Source: Lachnospiraceae bacterium (lineage in GTDB: Bacteria; Bacillota; Clostridia; Lachnospirales; Lachnospiraceae). From it: a stretch of 64,000 nt of DNA. A program made the translations under genes and the position numbers. Under the pieces are notes generated by a model that worked only from the letters and a program-made list of their open reading frames with translations, made no database searches and was not told the origin of the DNA. The stretch covers positions 1 through 64,000 of the forward strand of contig JAUNIX010000006.1 in assembly GCA_030523275.1 (NCBI GenBank), in the 5' to 3' direction. This document shows, one piece after another, positions 3,830 to 60,950 of this stretch (positions are counted from its first letter, which is position 1; each line of letters starts with the position of its first letter).

Positions 3830-3915
3830 AAAAGTGAATTTTGTATAAAATCACAGTTTTATTTCACATAGAAATAAAATAGATAGTAGAAATGAAAGAT
3901 AAATGGAGCGAACGA

Positions 3916-4863
3916 ATGTACAATGAATTTTTGGAATGGGATGATTCCGCAAGGTTGGCAAAAAGTGATGGATGCAGCGTTTATCAACTTCGTAATGAAA
4001 CAGGAGAAGGAACCATTACTATTTATGAGGTTTTCCCAGGTGTTACGTTGTCCTATAATGATTTTCATATGCACTATTATGACAGTGAGTTCAAGCCGAT
4101 GCGTGATATGTTTTGCATTGATCATTGTCGAGAGGGAAGATTGGAATATCCAGCTGCAAATGATGCTTTCTCCTATGTGGAGGCAGGAGATTTAAAGCTT
4201 GACCGAAGACTTACGCATGCCGGACACTTTGAAATGCCCCTTTCGCATTATCATGGTGCAACAATATCCTTTGATATGGACATTGCCTGTCAATCTCTGC
4301 CCTTAGAAATCAAAGATTTTGCTGTTAATTTGCGAAAATTGCAGGAAAAATATTGTCCCGATATTTATCCGATGGTTATTCACAATGCTTGTTCAATCGA
4401 GCATATTTTTGGTGAATTGTACGCTGTACCGGAAAAGATTAAACGTCCGTATTTCAAAATTAAAGTTTTGGAACTACTTTTATATCTAAAAGCATTAGAA
4501 CTGCCAGATAACCCGAAAGAAAAACCCTATTTCTATAAAACCCAGATAGAAAAAGTAAAAGCGATTCAGCAATTTCTTGTTTTGCATATAGATGAGCATT
4601 TTACACAAGAAGATTTATCAGCGAAGTTTGATATTCCTTTGACATCAATGAAGAAATGCTTTAAATCTGTGTTTGGTTCGACAATTGGAAATTATTTATT
4701 GCTATATCGAATGAATCAGGCGGCAGTTCTTTTAAAAACAAAACGTGATATGAATGTGTCAGAAATTGCCGGACGCGTTGGATATGATAGTCCGAGTAAG
4801 TTTGCAATTGCTTTTCGTAAAGTAATGGGTGCATCGCCAACGCAATACCGTAATCGTATATAA
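3916..4863 (+). CDS. AraC-family transcriptional regulator
   Basis: A DNA-binding regulator of about 315 residues with a poorly conserved N-terminal sensing region and a C-terminal pair of helix-turn-helix units over the last hundred residues (FTQEDLSAKFDIP and VSEIAGRVGYDSPSKFAIAFR, then the P-x-x-YR end). The ATG at 3916 has GGAG at 3905-3908; an earlier in-frame ATG at 3892 has no ribosome site. It is followed by two ABC half-transporter genes in the same direction. The same AraC/ABC/ABC set occurs at 11.8-16.4 kb. YbtA-YbtP-YbtQ type loci use such regulators to activate siderophore transport, so metal or siderophore control is possible but unproven. Confidence 0.8.
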   Translation: MYNEFLEWDDSARLAKSDGCSVYQLRNETGEGTITIYEVFPGVTLSYNDFHMHYYDSEFKPMRDMFCIDHCREGRLEYPAANDAFSYVEAGDLKLDRRLTHAGHFEMPLSHYHGATISFDMDIACQSLPLEIKDFAVNLRKLQEKYCPDIYPMVIHNACSIEHIFGELYAVPEKIKRPYFKIKVLELLLYLKALELPDNPKEKPYFYKTQIEKVKAIQQFLVLHIDEHFTQEDLSAKFDIPLTSMKKCFKSVFGSTIGNYLLLYRMNQAAVLLKTKRDMNVSEIAGRVGYDSPSKFAIAFRKVMGASPTQYRNRI

Positions 4864-4948
4864 GAAAAATAAAATGAAAAAGTTCTGTCAGATAAGGACA
4901 GGGCAGTCTGGATGGAGCAGATAAAAACAGGAAAATCATTTATGATGT

Positions 4949-4980
4949 GGATGGTGTGATCGTACACTATCCATTTTTTA
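4949..4980 (+). terminator. Intrinsic terminator of the araC-like gene
   Basis: GGATGGTGT at 4949-4957 pairs with ACACTATCC at 4964-4972 (one G-U pair), followed by ATTTTTTA. The structured repeat begins directly after the T tract. Confidence 0.75.
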
Positions 4981-5157
4981 TTTCATAGGAAATCACGTTG
5001 TAATTTCCTATGAAATAAAAAACGCTCCGCGAGGATGCGACCAGATGCATAAGGTAATGTGACTGCTTACAGCAGTCTGCATCTGGCGCACAAAGCGAAG
5101 CAAGTCCCTTAGGGATTGAGGGATTTAGGGAGTTCGAAGCGGACTTGTCCGCTTTTG
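4981..5157 (+). repeat. Structured repeat element, full copy A (177 nt)
   Basis: This copy aligns without gaps to 57994-58170 with seven differences, all transitions. Parts in order: a 35-nt near-palindrome built on TTTCATAGGAAAT / ATTTCCTATGAAA; GCTCCGC pairing with GCGAAGC (one mismatch in this copy); CCAGATGCA pairing with TGCATCTGG; an inner hairpin GACTGC-TTACA-GCAGTC; AGTCCC pairing with GGGATT; and a last hairpin AAGCGGAC-TT-GTCCGCTT followed by TTG. It encodes no convincing protein. It ends 31 nt before the ABC gene, so it lies in that gene's leader or supplies its promoter. It may be a miniature inverted-repeat element or a structured RNA. Confidence 0.85.
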
Positions 5158-5188
5158 TTATTTCAAATGAAAGGAGTGTTTTATTTTT

Positions 5189-7024
5189 ATGAATCAAGAA
5201 AAAAAGAATCAAAACTGGTTTTCCTGTCTTTTGAATTATGCGTCAGGAAGCAAAAATAAGCTGATTGGTTCGGTGATTTTGTCGATGATCAGTGTTGTTT
5301 CGGGAGTAATACCGTATTATTGCATGTACAAGATAATCGATGAATTTATTTTAGAAAGTATCAATGAGGATGTGATTTTGGTGTGGTGTGGGATAGCATT
5401 GACAGCATACTTTGTGAAAGTGTTGCTTTTTGGTTTTTCTACAGGACTTTCGCATTATGCTGCTTATCACATTTTGGAAAAGCTGCGAATTGAGGTGGCA
5501 GATCGCTTTTTGCATGCTCCATTAGGTGAGGTAACAGCTCATTCTATCGGTGAAATCAAAAATATTATGGTGGACAAAATTGAGGACATTGAGCCACCTC
5601 TGGCACATATGATCCCAGAGGGATGTGGACATATTATGCTTCCAATGGTCAGTTTTATTTCACTGCTCATGATTGACTGGCGAATTGCATTGGCATCACT
5701 TGTGACGGTCCCATTTTCGTTTGTATGTATGATGTTGACTTTCCAGATCAGCGGTAAAAACTTTGACAAATATAATACTTCCAATGCCTATATGAACAGC
5801 ACAATTGTGGAATATATCGAGGGAATTGAAGTGATCAAAGCTTTTGGACGAACAGGACAGTCTTATGAAAAATATGCAGATGCGATTCAAAATTATAAGA
5901 CTTTTGTCGTGAAATGGATGTCCTCCACATGGATTACAATGAAACTCGCGTTTGCTTTATTTCCGTCAACAATGCTTGGAACTTTACCCGTTAATCTGCT
6001 GTTGGCATCGAGAGGAACAATTACAGCCTCACAGGCAGCCTTATGCGTCATGCTTTCTATGTCTATGGTAACTTCGCTTGCACAATTAGAGGTATTTGGA
6101 AACAGCATAAAAGGTGTACAAATGACAGTAGAAGAATTACAGACCTATTTGACAATGCCTGAATTATCAGAACCTTTAGAGAGATCTTTATTATGGGGGT
6201 ATGATGTGGAATTGAAAAATATTCATTTTTCTTATACTGGAAATCAATCGGAAGAAGTGTTGCATGGGATTAATTTGGAATTACCACAGGGGAGTTTTAC
6301 GGCTTTGGTAGGTCCTTCCGGCGGAGGAAAATCGACAATTGCGAAATTGATTGCACGCTTTTGGGATGTGACTGACGGTGAAATATCTATTGGAGGAGTC
6401 AATATCAAAGATATGCCTCTTTCACAACTTGCGGATACAGTCAGTTTTGTAACACAGGAAAACTTTTTATTCCGTTGTTCTTTAAAAGAGAATATTCGAC
6501 TTGGCAATCCGCAGGCAAGCGATGAAGAAGTTTTTGCGGCAGCAAAGGCAGCACAGTGTGATGAATTTATATTAAAATTGCCTCAGGGGTACGACACTCC
6601 GGCAGGAGAAGCAGGAAAACGTCTCTCTGGTGGTGAAAAACAGCGCATTGCCATTGCCCGTATGATTCTTAAAAATGCACCAATTGTTATTCTTGACGAG
6701 GCCACTGCATTTACAGATCCAGAGAATGAAGAAAAGATTCAAAAAAGTATTTCTGCACTAACAGAAGGAAAAACATTGCTGGTGATTGCTCACAGACTTT
6801 CTACTATAAAGAATGCGGATAATATTGTTGTGTTGGAAAACGGAAATTTATTAGCACAGGGCAAACAGGAGCAATTACTTATGGATTGTCCATTATATAA
6901 CAAAATGTGGAATGCTCATATTGGTGCTAAAGCATGGTCCGTCTCATCTGCCAAAAATATTTTTGAAGATTCGATAATAACACTGCAATCAAACACCAGA
7001 AAGGGGGAGTTTGCAAATGTTTAA
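5189..7024 (+). CDS. ABC transporter, fused permease and ATPase (half-transporter 1)
   Basis: A 611-residue ABC-exporter-fold protein with about six membrane segments in the first 320 residues and an ATPase domain from about 335. The ATPase shows Walker A GPSGGGKST, signature LSGGEKQR, Walker B VILDEATAF and the switch histidine in IAHRLSTI. The ribosome site AAGGAG lies 12 nt before the ATG, a long spacing. It overlaps the next gene by 8 nt, so the two should form a heterodimer in the cytoplasmic membrane. Related pairs next to AraC regulators include drug exporters and siderophore importers of the YbtPQ/IrtAB kind; sequence alone does not fix the direction of transport. Confidence 0.85.
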   Translation: MNQEKKNQNWFSCLLNYASGSKNKLIGSVILSMISVVSGVIPYYCMYKIIDEFILESINEDVILVWCGIALTAYFVKVLLFGFSTGLSHYAAYHILEKLRIEVADRFLHAPLGEVTAHSIGEIKNIMVDKIEDIEPPLAHMIPEGCGHIMLPMVSFISLLMIDWRIALASLVTVPFSFVCMMLTFQISGKNFDKYNTSNAYMNSTIVEYIEGIEVIKAFGRTGQSYEKYADAIQNYKTFVVKWMSSTWITMKLAFALFPSTMLGTLPVNLLLASRGTITASQAALCVMLSMSMVTSLAQLEVFGNSIKGVQMTVEELQTYLTMPELSEPLERSLLWGYDVELKNIHFSYTGNQSEEVLHGINLELPQGSFTALVGPSGGGKSTIAKLIARFWDVTDGEISIGGVNIKDMPLSQLADTVSFVTQENFLFRCSLKENIRLGNPQASDEEVFAAAKAAQCDEFILKLPQGYDTPAGEAGKRLSGGEKQRIAIARMILKNAPIVILDEATAFTDPENEEKIQKSISALTEGKTLLVIAHRLSTIKNADNIVVLENGNLLAQGKQEQLLMDCPLYNKMWNAHIGAKAWSVSSAKNIFEDSIITLQSNTRKGEFANV

Positions 7025-8765
7025 AACAGTAAAACGAATCATCGATTGGTGTGGGGAATTCAAGGGTAGATTGTATATTGGATTTGTATTCTCATTCTTT
7101 TCTACCTGGTTTATGGCTATGCCTGTAATGGTGGCAGCTTATACCGTTGGTTTGCTGATTGAAAGTGCACAAAATGGCACAGAATTTGACAAAAAATGGA
7201 TATGGCAAAGCGTTGTATTGATTGTAGTTTTTGTATTTATGAGATTTTTATTTGATTATCTGCGTGCAAGATTTCAGGAAACCATAAGTTACGAACTGGT
7301 AGCAAAAGAAAGATTGGCAATTGGAGAAGCATTAAAACGAGTGTCGCTTGGCTATTTTCAACAGGCAGATACCGGAAATATTTTAAATTCGATTACAACT
7401 GGACTTCACTCCTTGGAAAATATGGGAATGCGTATGATCGACAGTTTTGTTGGTGGATATTTGAATTTTCTTTGTATTTTTCTTTGTCTGCTATATTTTA
7501 GTCCCTATGTATCACTGATTGCCATGGCAGGAGCCGCGCTATCGTTTCTATTTCTGTTGCTCGTATCGAAACATAGTACCCAAAATGCTCCTGTATCAGC
7601 AAAAGCCGGAAGAGATTTGACAGCTGCCACGTTAGAATATGCCAGAGGACTTTCGGTTGTAAAATCTTTTGGTCAGGGAGGTGCTTCTATGGCAGCCATG
7701 GAACAGGCATGTCGTGACTGTCGCGATATTTGTCTGAAAATTGAATGGGGGTTTGTTCCATCAAACTGTCTACATCTTTTGGCACTGAAAATTGCCTCTG
7801 TTGCTATGGCAGGAGCATCTTGTTTTTTGGGGTTAAGCGGTGAAATGTCATTTCCTATTATGTTAATGTTTGTATTCTTTTCTTTCAGTATTTTCGGTGG
7901 TTTGGAATCAATTAGTGACAGTGCGCATGTATTGGGTGTGATCGATACGGCGATGGATCAGATAGATGCATTAAAAGAAGGGAATTACATAGACAAAGAT
8001 GGGAAAGAAATCTCTTTAAACAGATATGATATCGAATTTTGTCATGTAGATTTTGGATATGATGAGAGAACAATTTTAAAAGATGTGAGCTTTACGATCC
8101 CCGAAAAAACTTCCACCGCGATCGTAGGATCTTCGGGGAGTGGAAAAACCACTATTTGCAATCTGATTGCCAGATTTTATGATGTCAAAAAGGGAAGCGT
8201 CCTTGTAGGTGGTTATAATGTGCGCGAATTTACCTGTGATAGTTTGCTTCAAAATATTTCTATGGTATTTCAAAATGTATATTTGTTCCATGACACTATT
8301 ATGAATAATATTCGATTTGGAAAACCAGATGCCACGGATGATGAAGTATATGCGGCTGCAAAAGCCGCCAGATGTCATGATTTTATTAAGGTCTTACCAA
8401 ATGGATACGAGACGATTATTGGGGAAGGCGGTGGAACACTGTCTGGTGGTGAAAAACAAAGAATCAGTATTGCACGAGCGATGCTAAAAAATGCACCGAT
8501 TATCATATTAGACGAGGCGACTGCCAGCATAGATCCTGAAAATGAACATTTGATTCAGGAAGCAATTTCTGAATTAACGAAAGGAAAAACAATTATTACA
8601 ATTGCACATCGTCTTGCTACGATTGAAAATGCAGATCAGATTTTGGTAATAGATAACGGAAGGGTTGCCCAGCAAGGAACGCACATGGAGCTTATGAAAC
8701 AGGACGGTGTATATAAGCGATTTATTGAAATCAGGCAAAAAGCCGAAGGCTGGAGTATCAGTTAA
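7017..8765 (+). CDS. ABC transporter, fused permease and ATPase (half-transporter 2)
   Basis: The 582-residue partner of the preceding gene. Membrane segments fill roughly residues 15-300 and the ATPase domain follows with GSSGSGKTT (Walker A), LSGGEKQRI (signature), IIILDEATAS (Walker B) and IAHRLATI (switch histidine); both sites look active. The ATG at 7017 lies 7 nt after GGGGGAG and inside the end of the upstream gene, which indicates translational coupling. An in-frame TTG at 7011 falls too close to the ribosome site. A strong ribosome site and a 14-codon stump follow the stop, suggesting that a third operon gene was lost. Confidence 0.85.
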   Translation: MFKTVKRIIDWCGEFKGRLYIGFVFSFFSTWFMAMPVMVAAYTVGLLIESAQNGTEFDKKWIWQSVVLIVVFVFMRFLFDYLRARFQETISYELVAKERLAIGEALKRVSLGYFQQADTGNILNSITTGLHSLENMGMRMIDSFVGGYLNFLCIFLCLLYFSPYVSLIAMAGAALSFLFLLLVSKHSTQNAPVSAKAGRDLTAATLEYARGLSVVKSFGQGGASMAAMEQACRDCRDICLKIEWGFVPSNCLHLLALKIASVAMAGASCFLGLSGEMSFPIMLMFVFFSFSIFGGLESISDSAHVLGVIDTAMDQIDALKEGNYIDKDGKEISLNRYDIEFCHVDFGYDERTILKDVSFTIPEKTSTAIVGSSGSGKTTICNLIARFYDVKKGSVLVGGYNVREFTCDSLLQNISMVFQNVYLFHDTIMNNIRFGKPDATDDEVYAAAKAARCHDFIKVLPNGYETIIGEGGGTLSGGEKQRISIARAMLKNAPIIILDEATASIDPENEHLIQEAISELTKGKTIITIAHRLATIENADQILVIDNGRVAQQGTHMELMKQDGVYKRFIEIRQKAEGWSIS

Positions 8766-24640: not shown

Positions 24641-24689
24641 AAATTTACACATATGACGCACATAAAGTGTTTCATATAGATTGACAAAT

Positions 24690-24827
24690 GACAAAGATAA
24701 AAACGCAACGTACATTTTTAAGATGTACCAGAGCCGGAAGGTAGCCCGGCCGTCCTGTGAAAACAGGGTAAGTAACCTGCCCCTCCTGGGTTGTCCGTTC
24801 TTTGTCTATAACACATTTTAAGGAGGG
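24690..24827 (+). ncRNA. yjdF riboswitch
   Basis: A closing stem GACAAAGA (24690-24697) with TCTTTGTC (24799-24806) encloses several GC-rich hairpins, including GCCGG/CCGGC and CCTGT/ACAGG. The downstream gene is yjdF, and the yjdF RNA motif is an established riboswitch class that responds to azaaromatic compounds. The segment CCCTCCT at 24781-24787 is perfectly complementary to the ribosome site AGGAGGG at 24821-24827, so translation could be gated by exchange between the two pairings. The exact aptamer limits need a covariance model. Confidence 0.8.
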
Positions 24828-35757: not shown

Positions 35758-35796
35758 ATCAAACAGATTGCATATGCAATCATAGATACATAAATC

Positions 35797-35985
35797 AATA
35801 GGTGTCAGGCAAGCGAATTTGTCTGGTGAAAAGGGAAACAGGTGTAAATCCTGTGCGAACTCGTCACTGTAAGCAGTGATATATGGAACAGGTAAGAGGA
35901 AAGACTCTTACGCCACTGGAAACGGGAAGGTAGTTTCATATGAAAAACTGTAAGTCAGGAGACCTGCCTATTGGTTTGACTTGGG
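35797..35985 (+). ncRNA. Cobalamin (adenosylcobalamin) riboswitch
   Basis: The region begins with GGTGTCAGGCAAGC and continues with GGGAAACAGGTG, then the conserved GCCACTG (near 35913) and the B12 box around AAGTCAGGAGACCTGCC (35953-35969). These are the hallmark segments of the class I cobalamin riboswitch in the right order. Downstream come a BtuFCD-like transporter and a cobaltochelatase, which fits repression when corrinoid is plentiful. Confidence 0.93.
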
Positions 35986-41436: not shown

Positions 41437-41470
41437 GAAGGTAAGAAGGTTTTCATTTATCTATATCATA

Positions 41471-41505
41471 AAAAATGCTCTGCAAAATATGACAAGATGC
41501 ATATA
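41471..41505 (+). repeat. Possible decayed fragment of the structured repeat
   Basis: AAAAAATGCTCTGC and then GACAAGATGCATA match the repeat's AAAAAACGCTCCGC and GACCAGATGCATA with several changes and one missing base. The rest of the element is absent. It could be chance in an A+T-rich gap. Confidence 0.35.
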
Positions 41506-41512
41506 GAAAAAA

Positions 41513-42094
41513 CTAAAGAGGCTCTGCCATAAAAAAAGCCAATCCATGTAATGAAACTTCTGCAATTAGTTTTGCGATTTCATTTTTGTCTGTTTTTAAA
41601 TTCTCATCATACCATTTCCATAAAATTCCCATAAATCCGGCAATCGAAAAGGAATAAATGTATTCTGCATATTTTTCTTGTATTTTGGTATCGAACATTT
41701 CTTCAATACATCGTTTTTCTACTTCCAATATGATTTTATTTTGAAAATCAAACGGTTCTGAATTACTCCGTAGTGCACCGAAAAAATTCTGGTGTTCTTC
41801 CAAATAGGTTAGAATATTTAATATTAATTGCATTCCTTCTGATTCAGGGCCAGATGGCTGGAAGGATTCTAAATATTTTTGAATGTCTTTCGTGACTTCT
41901 TGTTGAATCTGTTCTAATAAATCATAGGCGTCTTTATAGTGACTATAAAAAGTTCCACGGTTTACATCTGCAATTTCACATATTTCTTTTACTGTAATTT
42001 TTTCAATTGGTTTTTCTGCTAACAGGTCCAAAAATGCATCGGTAATCATTTTTCTTGTATATTGAACTCGTCGGTCTATTTTTCTCTTTTCCAT
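41513..42094 (-). CDS. TetR-family transcriptional regulator
   Basis: A 193-residue repressor. The N-terminal helix-turn-helix reads KITVKEICEIADVNRGTFYSHYKDAYDLLEQI, typical of the DhaS/AcrR-like group, with a C-terminal ligand domain ending in FSIAGFMGILWKWYDENL. GAGGA precedes the ATG. It is divergent from an MMPL exporter gene, which it most likely represses by binding the inverted repeat between them. Confidence 0.85.
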   Translation of the reverse strand: MEKRKIDRRVQYTRKMITDAFLDLLAEKPIEKITVKEICEIADVNRGTFYSHYKDAYDLLEQIQQEVTKDIQKYLESFQPSGPESEGMQLILNILTYLEEHQNFFGALRSNSEPFDFQNKIILEVEKRCIEEMFDTKIQEKYAEYIYSFSIAGFMGILWKWYDENLKTDKNEIAKLIAEVSLHGLAFFMAEPL

Positions 42095-48755: not shown

Positions 48756-48803
48756 AAAAGCGGACAAGTCCATCCCAACCCCTCTAAATCCTTCAGTCCC
48801 TGA
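48756..48803 (-). repeat. Structured repeat, fragment C (3' end only)
   Basis: On the minus strand this matches the last 48 nt of the repeat: CAGGGACTGA, GGATTTAG and GGACTTGTCCGCTTTT align with copies A and B, with changes between. The terminal hairpin is partly lost. It lies 11 nt after the alcohol dehydrogenase stop codon. Confidence 0.7.
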
Positions 48804-51794: not shown

Positions 51795-51826
51795 GAGCCT
51801 GAATGATTGGATTCAGGCTCTTTTTT
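51795..51826 (+). terminator. Terminator of the phosphate cotransporter operon
   Basis: GAGCCTGAAT pairs with ATTCAGGCTC around GATTG, followed by six T. A repeat fragment begins 3 nt later. Confidence 0.88.
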
Positions 51827-51828
51827 CA

Positions 51829-51895
51829 TTTCATAGGAAATTACGTTATAATTTCTATGAAATATTCTAAGAAATTATGTTGTCATTTCGATGAA
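51829..51895. repeat. Structured repeat, fragment E (palindromic arm only, doubled)
   Basis: The 35-nt palindromic arm of the repeat (TTTCATAGGAAATTACG, then ATTTCTATGAAA) is present at 51829-51862. A second, more decayed arm follows at 51863-51895 (CTAAGAAATTATG and CATTTCGATGAAA). The remaining body of the element is missing. Confidence 0.65.
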
Positions 51896-52025
51896 AAAAG
51901 CTTTCTAGTTCCTTCATGTACAAAAACTAATAATAGTTTTGCATGGACTTTATGAAAAAAATGTTGTAAAATGTAGTTTGGCATAGAAAATTTAAATATT
52001 AAGTTAGGAGGAGTATGATTTTGTT

Positions 52026-57026: not shown

Positions 57027-57063
57027 AGGAATGATAATGTTAAAAAGAAGATGGAGGGATATA

Positions 57064-57936
57064 ATGAATATAGTAGTTGCGACTGATAGTGCCAGCGGTA
57101 TGACACAAGAAGAAGCAAAACAGTTAGGTGTTCCGATATTGCCTGTTCCATTCATTATAAATGGAGAGGAGTATTTAGAAAATGTAAACATGACCAGAGA
57201 AAGGTTTTATGAATTATTAGAAGATGATAGTGCAGTGATTTCTACTTCACAGCCATCTTATGCAGCAATGACTGAGTTTTGGGACAATTTACTAAAAGAA
57301 TATGATGCGGTTATTTATATACCATTATCCAGCGGACTTAGTGGTTCTTGTCAGACAGCAACGATGATCGCAGCGGAAAGTTATGAGGGTAAAGTATGGG
57401 TTGTCAATAATCAGAGAATTTCTGTTAGCCAGAGACAAGCTGTTTTAGATGCACAAACTTTGATTGCACAAGGAAAGGCTCCACAGGAAATACATGATAC
57501 GCTCATGGATATGAAATATGATGGCAGTATTTATATTATGCTAGATACGTTAAAATATCTTGCCAAAGGCGGTAGATTAACTCCAGCGGCGGCTGTCATT
57601 GGAAATGTATTAAATTTAAAACCGGTTTTACAGATCCAAGGAGAAAAATTAGATGCATATTCGAAGACAAGAGGCGCAAAAAAGGGCATTAAAATTATGC
57701 TGGAAGCCTTACGCAATGATTTAGACGGAGTTTATAAAAAATATGACGAAGCTGGAGAGATGTATCTACAGATTGCACATACAAATTGCCTGGACCGTGC
57801 TTTGGAATTAAAAGAACGCATGGAAAAAGAATTTCCAGAATATGATATTTTCCTGGCAGATCTTCCGTTAGAAGTTTCTTGTCACCTTGGTCCTCAAGCA
57901 CTTGGCGTTGGTTGCACAAGAAGAATTCAAGCATAA
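57064..57936 (+). CDS. DegV-family fatty acid-binding protein
   Basis: A 290-residue protein with the DegV start IVVATDSASGMTQEEAKQLG, VPFIINGEEY, STSQPSYA and the C-terminal half LDTLKYLAKGGRL, which bind a single fatty acid. These proteins act as FakB, carrying exogenous fatty acid to the FakA kinase; no FakA is near. GGAGGG precedes the ATG at 57064, and the longer frame from 57031 starts inside the leader. Confidence 0.85.
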   Translation: MNIVVATDSASGMTQEEAKQLGVPILPVPFIINGEEYLENVNMTRERFYELLEDDSAVISTSQPSYAAMTEFWDNLLKEYDAVIYIPLSSGLSGSCQTATMIAAESYEGKVWVVNNQRISVSQRQAVLDAQTLIAQGKAPQEIHDTLMDMKYDGSIYIMLDTLKYLAKGGRLTPAAAVIGNVLNLKPVLQIQGEKLDAYSKTRGAKKGIKIMLEALRNDLDGVYKKYDEAGEMYLQIAHTNCLDRALELKERMEKEFPEYDIFLADLPLEVSCHLGPQALGVGCTRRIQA

Positions 57937-57956: not shown

Positions 57957-57992
57957 GTAAAAAGTGGTATCGTTAAGTGATACCACTTTTTT
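57957..57992 (+). terminator. Terminator of the DegV gene
   Basis: AAAAAGTGGTATC pairs with GATACCACTTTTT around a seven-base loop. Repeat copy B begins 2 nt after the T tract. Confidence 0.85.
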
Positions 57993-57993
57993 G

Positions 57994-58170
57994 TTTCATA
58001 GGAAATTACGTTATAATTTCCTATGAAATAAAAAACGCTCCGCGAGGATGCGACCAGATGCATAAGGTAATGTGACTGCTTACAGCAGTCTGCATCTGGC
58101 GCACAAAGCGGAGCAAGTCCCTCAGGGACTGAGGGATTTAGGGAGTTCGAGGCGGACTTGTCCGCCTTTG
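57994..58170 (+). repeat. Structured repeat element, full copy B (177 nt)
   Basis: Colinear with copy A at 4981-5157. In this copy the GCTCCGC/GCGGAGC stem is perfect, as are CCAGATGCA/TGCATCTGG, GACTGC/GCAGTC, AGTCCC/GGGACT and the last hairpin AGGCGGAC-TT-GTCCGCCT. Compared with copy A the last hairpin shows one compensatory change (G-C here, A-T there). The short open frames shared by the two copies are part of the repeat, not genes. Confidence 0.85.
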
Positions 58171-60774: not shown

Positions 60775-60857
60775 CAAAAGCGGACAAGATGCATCTGGTC
60801 GCATCCCCGCGGAGCGTTTTTTGTTTCATAGAAATTATAACGTAATTTGCTATGAAT
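60775..60857 (-). repeat. Structured repeat, internally deleted copy D
   Basis: On the minus strand this begins with the palindromic arm (ATTCATAGCAAATTACG, then AATTTCTATGAAA), continues with CGCTCCGCGGGGATGCGACC and AGATGCAT, then jumps straight to CTTGTCCGCTTTTG. About 90 nt of the middle of the element are missing, from inside the CCAGATGCA stem to the last hairpin. Confidence 0.8.
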
Positions 60858-60950
60858 TAAAAAAATCAGGATACTCAAATAGGGTAAAATATGGAAATTG
60901 TTTTGCATATTATTTACTTACAATTAAACTTTCAAATTCCCCCATAAATA

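Follow-up and report, generated by a model that had tools for sequence, protein, structure and literature searches.

A protein-free, hairpin-rich DNA repeat found behind gene-end terminators in Lachnospiraceae genomes

The 64,000-nucleotide stretch of Lachnospiraceae DNA analysed here (the window) carries two full copies, several fragments and one degenerate remnant of a structured repeat, and the question it raises is whether this repeat is a miniature mobile element that targets transcription terminators or a dispersed structured RNA. Both readings were offered by an initial annotation of the window. We find a protein-free, hairpin-rich piece of DNA of about 180 bases, dispersed through many gut and rumen Lachnospiraceae genomes and nearly always inserted just 3' of a gene-end terminator. 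It appears to be an unnamed, family-wide repeat: no published name or description was found in the papers searched (most subscription journals were outside reach, and a prior description is possible), and a search against Rfam returned no family at the gathering threshold and none at E<=5.

Copies A (4981) and B (57994), reported as colinear over 177 nt with only seven transitions, differ at exactly seven positions, all of them transitions. Copy A lies on the plus strand behind gene 3892-4863, and its insertion target is the T6 tract (4974-4979) of the intrinsic terminator of that gene (4947-4979, plus strand, 12-bp stem). The 35-nt palindrome noted at the start of the element is real and extends to 49 nt (P, 4974-5022) once the host T tract and the A tract are counted, with the host T6 pairing with A6 of the element (5017-5022) around ATTTCATAGGAAAT..ATTTCCTATGAAAT. 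P is followed by H1 (5023-5039, CGCTCC-GCGA-GGATGCG), the most conserved block of the family, which together with A6 reads on the minus strand as a hairpin plus T6. S1 (5041-5089) has a 9-bp stem (CCAGATGCA/TGCATCTGG), a one-sided 11-nt purine-rich bulge and the apical hairpin GACTGCT-TAC-AGCAGTC. The right module (5090-5159) is an inverted repeat (ACAAAGCGAAGCAAGTCC..GGACTTGTCCGCTTTTGTT) with an inner hairpin, and it closes with a hairpin like that of a terminator followed by TTTTGTT; like H1 and S1, it lies on the plus strand.

Copy B is also full length (57987-58170, plus strand) and begins at the T6 of the terminator behind gene 57031-57936. The broken copies reported at 48756 (minus), 51829 (plus) and 60775 (minus) are real fragments. 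Copy C (48756-48803, minus strand) retains the right module only, as an internal-deletion derivative, and adjoins a terminator T tract too (CACCCTGTAAACAATGTTTACAAGGTGTTTTATTA). Copy D (51822-51900, plus strand) consists of the palindrome and a second, degenerate palindrome; it had been placed against a terminator at its other end, but its terminator (GAGCCTGAATGATTGGATTCAGGCTCTTTTTT) is in fact at the same, left end as in A and B. Copy E (60775-60865, minus strand) has both ends and a deleted middle. The claim that A, B and E all begin at a terminator T tract thus holds for A and B, whereas E has a left T tract with no clear hairpin before it. The possible copy at 41471 (copy F, 41440-41520, plus strand, limits approximate and set by eye) is a degenerate piece recognised by eye, with the right arm of P, H1 and the start of S1.

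Across the family, the order on the sense strand is host terminator and T tract, P with a conserved inner ATAGGAAAT/ATTTCCTAT, A6, H1, S1 (a stem of 8-9 bp, a purine-rich bulge on one side and an apical hairpin) and, last, a right hairpin with a T run of its own, ending near TTTTGTTCT. The A tract of the right arm of P is complementary to the host T tract, and the element folded as DNA gives z = -10.7.

The genome from which the window comes (G000, 2.9 Mb in 65 contigs) contains about 50 copies of this type (type 1), as judged from a whole-genome search (40 scored places, 121 first-look candidates), a core-only search that added fragments, and stand-alone palindromes; a control search with the reversed pattern gave 0 matches. 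It also carries 7 copies of a second sub-type (type 2). One type-1 copy, L241 (C42:136922-137032), has the core of the type seen in another genus (G023), and therefore at least two type-1 subfamilies coexist in this genome, judging from that core sequence. Relatives of the element were detected in 42 of 100 sampled Lachnospiraceae genera and in a genus of a different family within the order (g138), with 1 to at least 47 copies per genome, the high counts being lower limits. The distribution across genera is patchy and numerous copies are decayed or truncated. The same 5' to 3' order of parts is found in Coprococcus comes, Clostridium fessum, Butyrivibrio, Blautia glucerasea, Oliverpabstia, [Clostridium] aminophilum and many metagenome-assembled genomes. 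Tandem copies occur, the second beginning directly after the GTTC of the first. Viral contigs contained no exact match and plasmids none, and phage records gave only partial matches of 30-35%, in unannotated faecal contigs.

The link with terminators is strong. A strong stem ending immediately before the T tract at which the copy starts was found in 30 of 40 copies of the own genome, compared with 45 of the 891 other tracts of at least five T in the same loci, which served as controls (Fisher p = 1.5e-27, odds ratio 56). Together with the number of copies in the genome, this puts the repeat well outside what chance would give. Several of the ten remaining copies look by eye like terminators with interrupted tails or bulged stems (L002, L014, L019 and L024). 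One true exception, L017, coincides with the stop codon of a gene whose last bases are ..ATTTTTAG, and the right arm of this copy is CTAAAAA, the complement of those host bases.

Comparison with sister species, which the annotation had suggested for mapping empty sites, showed presence and absence at orthologous loci. At L017, the element is preceded by GTAATTTTTAG and followed by TATTCG, whereas in G001 (L166) AAATTTCTAA runs directly into TATTCG, with no duplication. Target-site duplications were likewise not above expectation across junctions (observed 3.32, shuffled 3.36). The junction at the T tract is precise and the orientation relative to it is fixed. These features, together with the many dispersed copies, support a mobile element. 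At two genes, the site in a sister species has no more than a palindrome or half palindrome peculiar to that species (L178, L170, L171), reflecting either an ancient common insertion that has since diverged or terminators that were used more than once. At one such gene, with a purH-like 3' end, the palindromes at the terminator differ in sequence among three species of the genus (L030, L170 in G002 and L171 in G001). Among truncated copies counted by eye, 16 keep the left end without the right and 2 the right without the left, a polarity that could be produced by polar synthesis or by selection for the host terminator.

Whether the hairpins act as RNA can be judged from how they vary. The sequence of the middle and left hairpins changes completely between genera and the pairing is kept: S1 was paired in 93% of cells compared with 48% with shuffled partners, almost every S1 position showed three or four pair types across genera, and P showed compensatory changes. 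RNA stems favour G.U over A.C, and a single-strand hairpin is expected to tolerate G.T more than A.C. Among the 954 cells of S1, G.T occurred 26 times and A.C 31 times; in P, 87 G.T stood against about 150 A.C by a hand count, or about 113 when the T tract is left out. tRNA stems of the same loci, used as a control, had 64 G.T against 13 A.C, even with the T-arm part roughly aligned, which would dilute the contrast. The preference for G.U over A.C that marks functional RNA structure in covarying stems was therefore not seen. That G.T is no commoner than A.C in S1 and P, unlike in tRNA stems, argues for hairpins of DNA rather than RNA, with pairing conserved as DNA palindromes through selection for a DNA hairpin or palindrome correction during replication. 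Of the two original readings, the terminator-targeting miniature mobile element is supported and the dispersed structured RNA is disfavoured.

The sub-types connect the element with known transposons. In type-2 copies (L265-L271 on contigs C44, C56, C45, C29 and C42 of the own genome; L295, L300 and L301 in G095), the left palindrome is TATATCAGATG..CATCTGATATA, with CTCCCACCTCTATAGGTGGTGAG inside it. This inner sequence agrees at 21 of 23 bases with the hairpin at the left end of an IS605-type tnpA element in G043, compared with at most 15 after shuffling. Copies in G015 enclose CCCCCACCTCTAAGC..GTAGGTGGGGG between TTTAAC and GTTAAA. Sub-types with other left flanks (TTTAAC/GTTAAA and TATA/TATA) thus enclose an IS200/IS605-type hairpin; alternatively, the inner hairpin could be a miniature IS200/IS605 derivative (PATE) that transposed into the P loop. 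The type-2 and G015 sub-types are not linked to terminators, but have H1, S1 and the right hairpin in common with type 1, whose P showed no similarity to IS605 ends. In all three sub-types, the bases that immediately precede CGCTCC are reverse-complementary to those at the left junction; in type 1 the junction bases are those of the host terminator, and it is for type 1 alone that their host origin is evident. Insertion of IS200/IS605 elements creates no duplication and takes place 3' of a specific tetra- or pentanucleotide, which is recognised through DNA-DNA pairing (PMC7290912). In IS608, a complement engineered 3' of the left hairpin extends targeting, and the layout of all three sub-types, with the complement 3' of the left hairpin, is the one engineered there (PMC5934647).

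We consider it somewhat better than an even chance, at roughly 0.55, that the element is non-autonomous, hairpin-ended mobile DNA working like PATEs, with a guide adapted to terminator T tracts; the claim concerns how it works, not membership in IS200/IS605. It would insert immediately 3' of a T-rich target, in one orientation and without target-site duplication. Immediately 3' of the left hairpin, the element encodes an A tract that is the complement of the target and plausibly selects it by base pairing; with A6 as that complement in this lineage, the landing site would be the T tract of intrinsic terminators, a safe space behind genes. The element would depend on a transposase supplied in trans, probably of the Y1 (HUH) type, and would move through a single-strand DNA intermediate. 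The element resembles PATEs in its end hairpins, lack of protein and of target duplication, insertion 3' of a T-rich site, complementarity to the target and the IS605-type hairpin inside two sub-types. It differs from them in type-1 ends that match no known IS200/IS605 element, a three-hairpin body with conserved H1, a terminator T tract as target, and the lack of a detected autonomous partner. Several findings weigh against this reading: the results on transposases given below, the lack of similarity between type-1 P and IS605 ends, and the equality of G.T and A.C, because of which some of the pairing may come from correction of palindromes in duplex DNA. REP/BIME sequences with TnpA-REP (PMC8266576) are also small, palindromic, high-copy and extragenic, possibly moved by a Y1-type enzyme in trans; the present element is much longer, with several hairpins, a T-tract target and no GTAG foot seen.

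A bolder and more doubtful extension is that the sub-types form a family of naturally guide-programmed single-strand DNA transposons, in which a 6-7 nt guide directly 3' of the left hairpin, reverse-complementary to host bases where the element inserts, was switched between sub-types. The guides might be A6 for terminator T tracts, GTTAAA for TTTAAC, and those of the TATA/TAAA types. If so, guidance to terminators would allow the element to build up dozens of copies in a genome while leaving genes unharmed. Should the A tract serve as the guide, the design engineered in IS608, a longer target pairing 3' of the left hairpin, would also exist in nature.

The window contains no transposase, as first reported, and a full element with the same ends and a transposase, which the annotation proposed to look for, was found in none of the loci examined. 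Genes recurrent near more than 100 copies were ABC transporters, a tRNA synthetase and other housekeeping genes, with no transposase among them. None of the tnpA loci examined carries the ends of the element, and IS200 tnpA was rejected as a partner. The only IS200 tnpA of the own genome (L165, C3:17474-17830) is damaged and has lost its left hairpin; it adjoins a fragment resembling the right (3') module, inside which the contig ends, and is the sole such case. A Y1 transposase is present in the own genome and in 26 of 36 element-bearing compared with 21 of 47 other genomes (p = 0.015; 83 near-complete genomes), a weak association that ignores kinship. Y1_Tnp was not found in the near-complete, high-copy genomes G006, G095 and G115 (9, 34 and 9 copies), in which the mover may have been lost or may be another protein. 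TnpB was rejected, being absent from 10 of the 12 genomes searched, most of which are high-copy.

Among other explanations, a domesticated regulatory repeat, kept by selection as a second, two-way terminator or 3'-end structure, seems improbable. Terminator-like hairpins on both strands (H1 and T6 on the minus, the terminal hairpin and T run on the plus), the conservation of H1 and A6 as the foremost block, and the many copies between genes would all suit it. It is at odds with presence and absence between sister species at the same genes, the numerous decayed or truncated copies, the patchy distribution, tandem insertion of the element into itself and the lack of an RNA-type wobble preference.

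Retroelement-like mobility is a little less probable still. An RNA would be copied into DNA at the terminator through pairing of the A tract with the T tract, as in group IIC introns (IBS1/EBS1), perhaps with the reverse transcriptase of these introns acting in trans. The insertion sites of group IIC introns lie immediately behind rho-independent terminators (PMC8919778), and element bases likewise pair with the T tract. The polar truncations are expected if synthesis starts at the T-tract side, but selection for the host terminator explains them too. The element, of about 180 nt, has no ribozyme core, intron boundary motifs, domain V or reverse transcriptase gene, and no Rfam match to an intron family; its stems lack the G.U preference of functional RNA. 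A reverse transcriptase does exist in the own genome, but RVT_1 occurs in 23 of 36 element-bearing and 24 of 47 other genomes (p = 0.27), is absent from the high-copy genomes G105 and G115, and was rejected as a partner. In one complete Lachnospiraceae genome (G074 C1), we detected about 31 reverse-transcriptase matches, many identical, apparently a burst of group II introns or of comparable elements.

A conventional MITE that depends on a DDE transposase, in the manner of YPAL of Yersinia (168 bp; YPAL/RU-2), is very unlikely. The two repeats are of similar length (about 168-180 bp), and both have inverted repeats inside, numerous copies between genes and insertion sites at or beside terminator-like dyads (PMC2229807; PMC2267715), in keeping with the terminator-adjacent insertion seen here. 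YPAL belongs to a different phylum and duplicates 3-26 bp of its target (PMC2229807), compared with no duplication here above shuffled expectation or in the clean empty-site comparison.

Read as mobile DNA that works like a PATE, the element would be a family-wide repeat of major gut bacteria and among the few small mobile elements that land at a transcription terminator, where arrival behind gene ends does little harm. Its copies are a likely cause of breaks in some Lachnospiraceae assemblies, because contigs end inside them. Elsewhere in the window, Rfam matched azaaromatic (yjdF) and cobalamin riboswitches (24687-24814 and 35783-35985), and the regions 5189-8765 and about 13-16 kb contain paralogous ABC exporter genes with long DNA stretches that are 68-79% identical.
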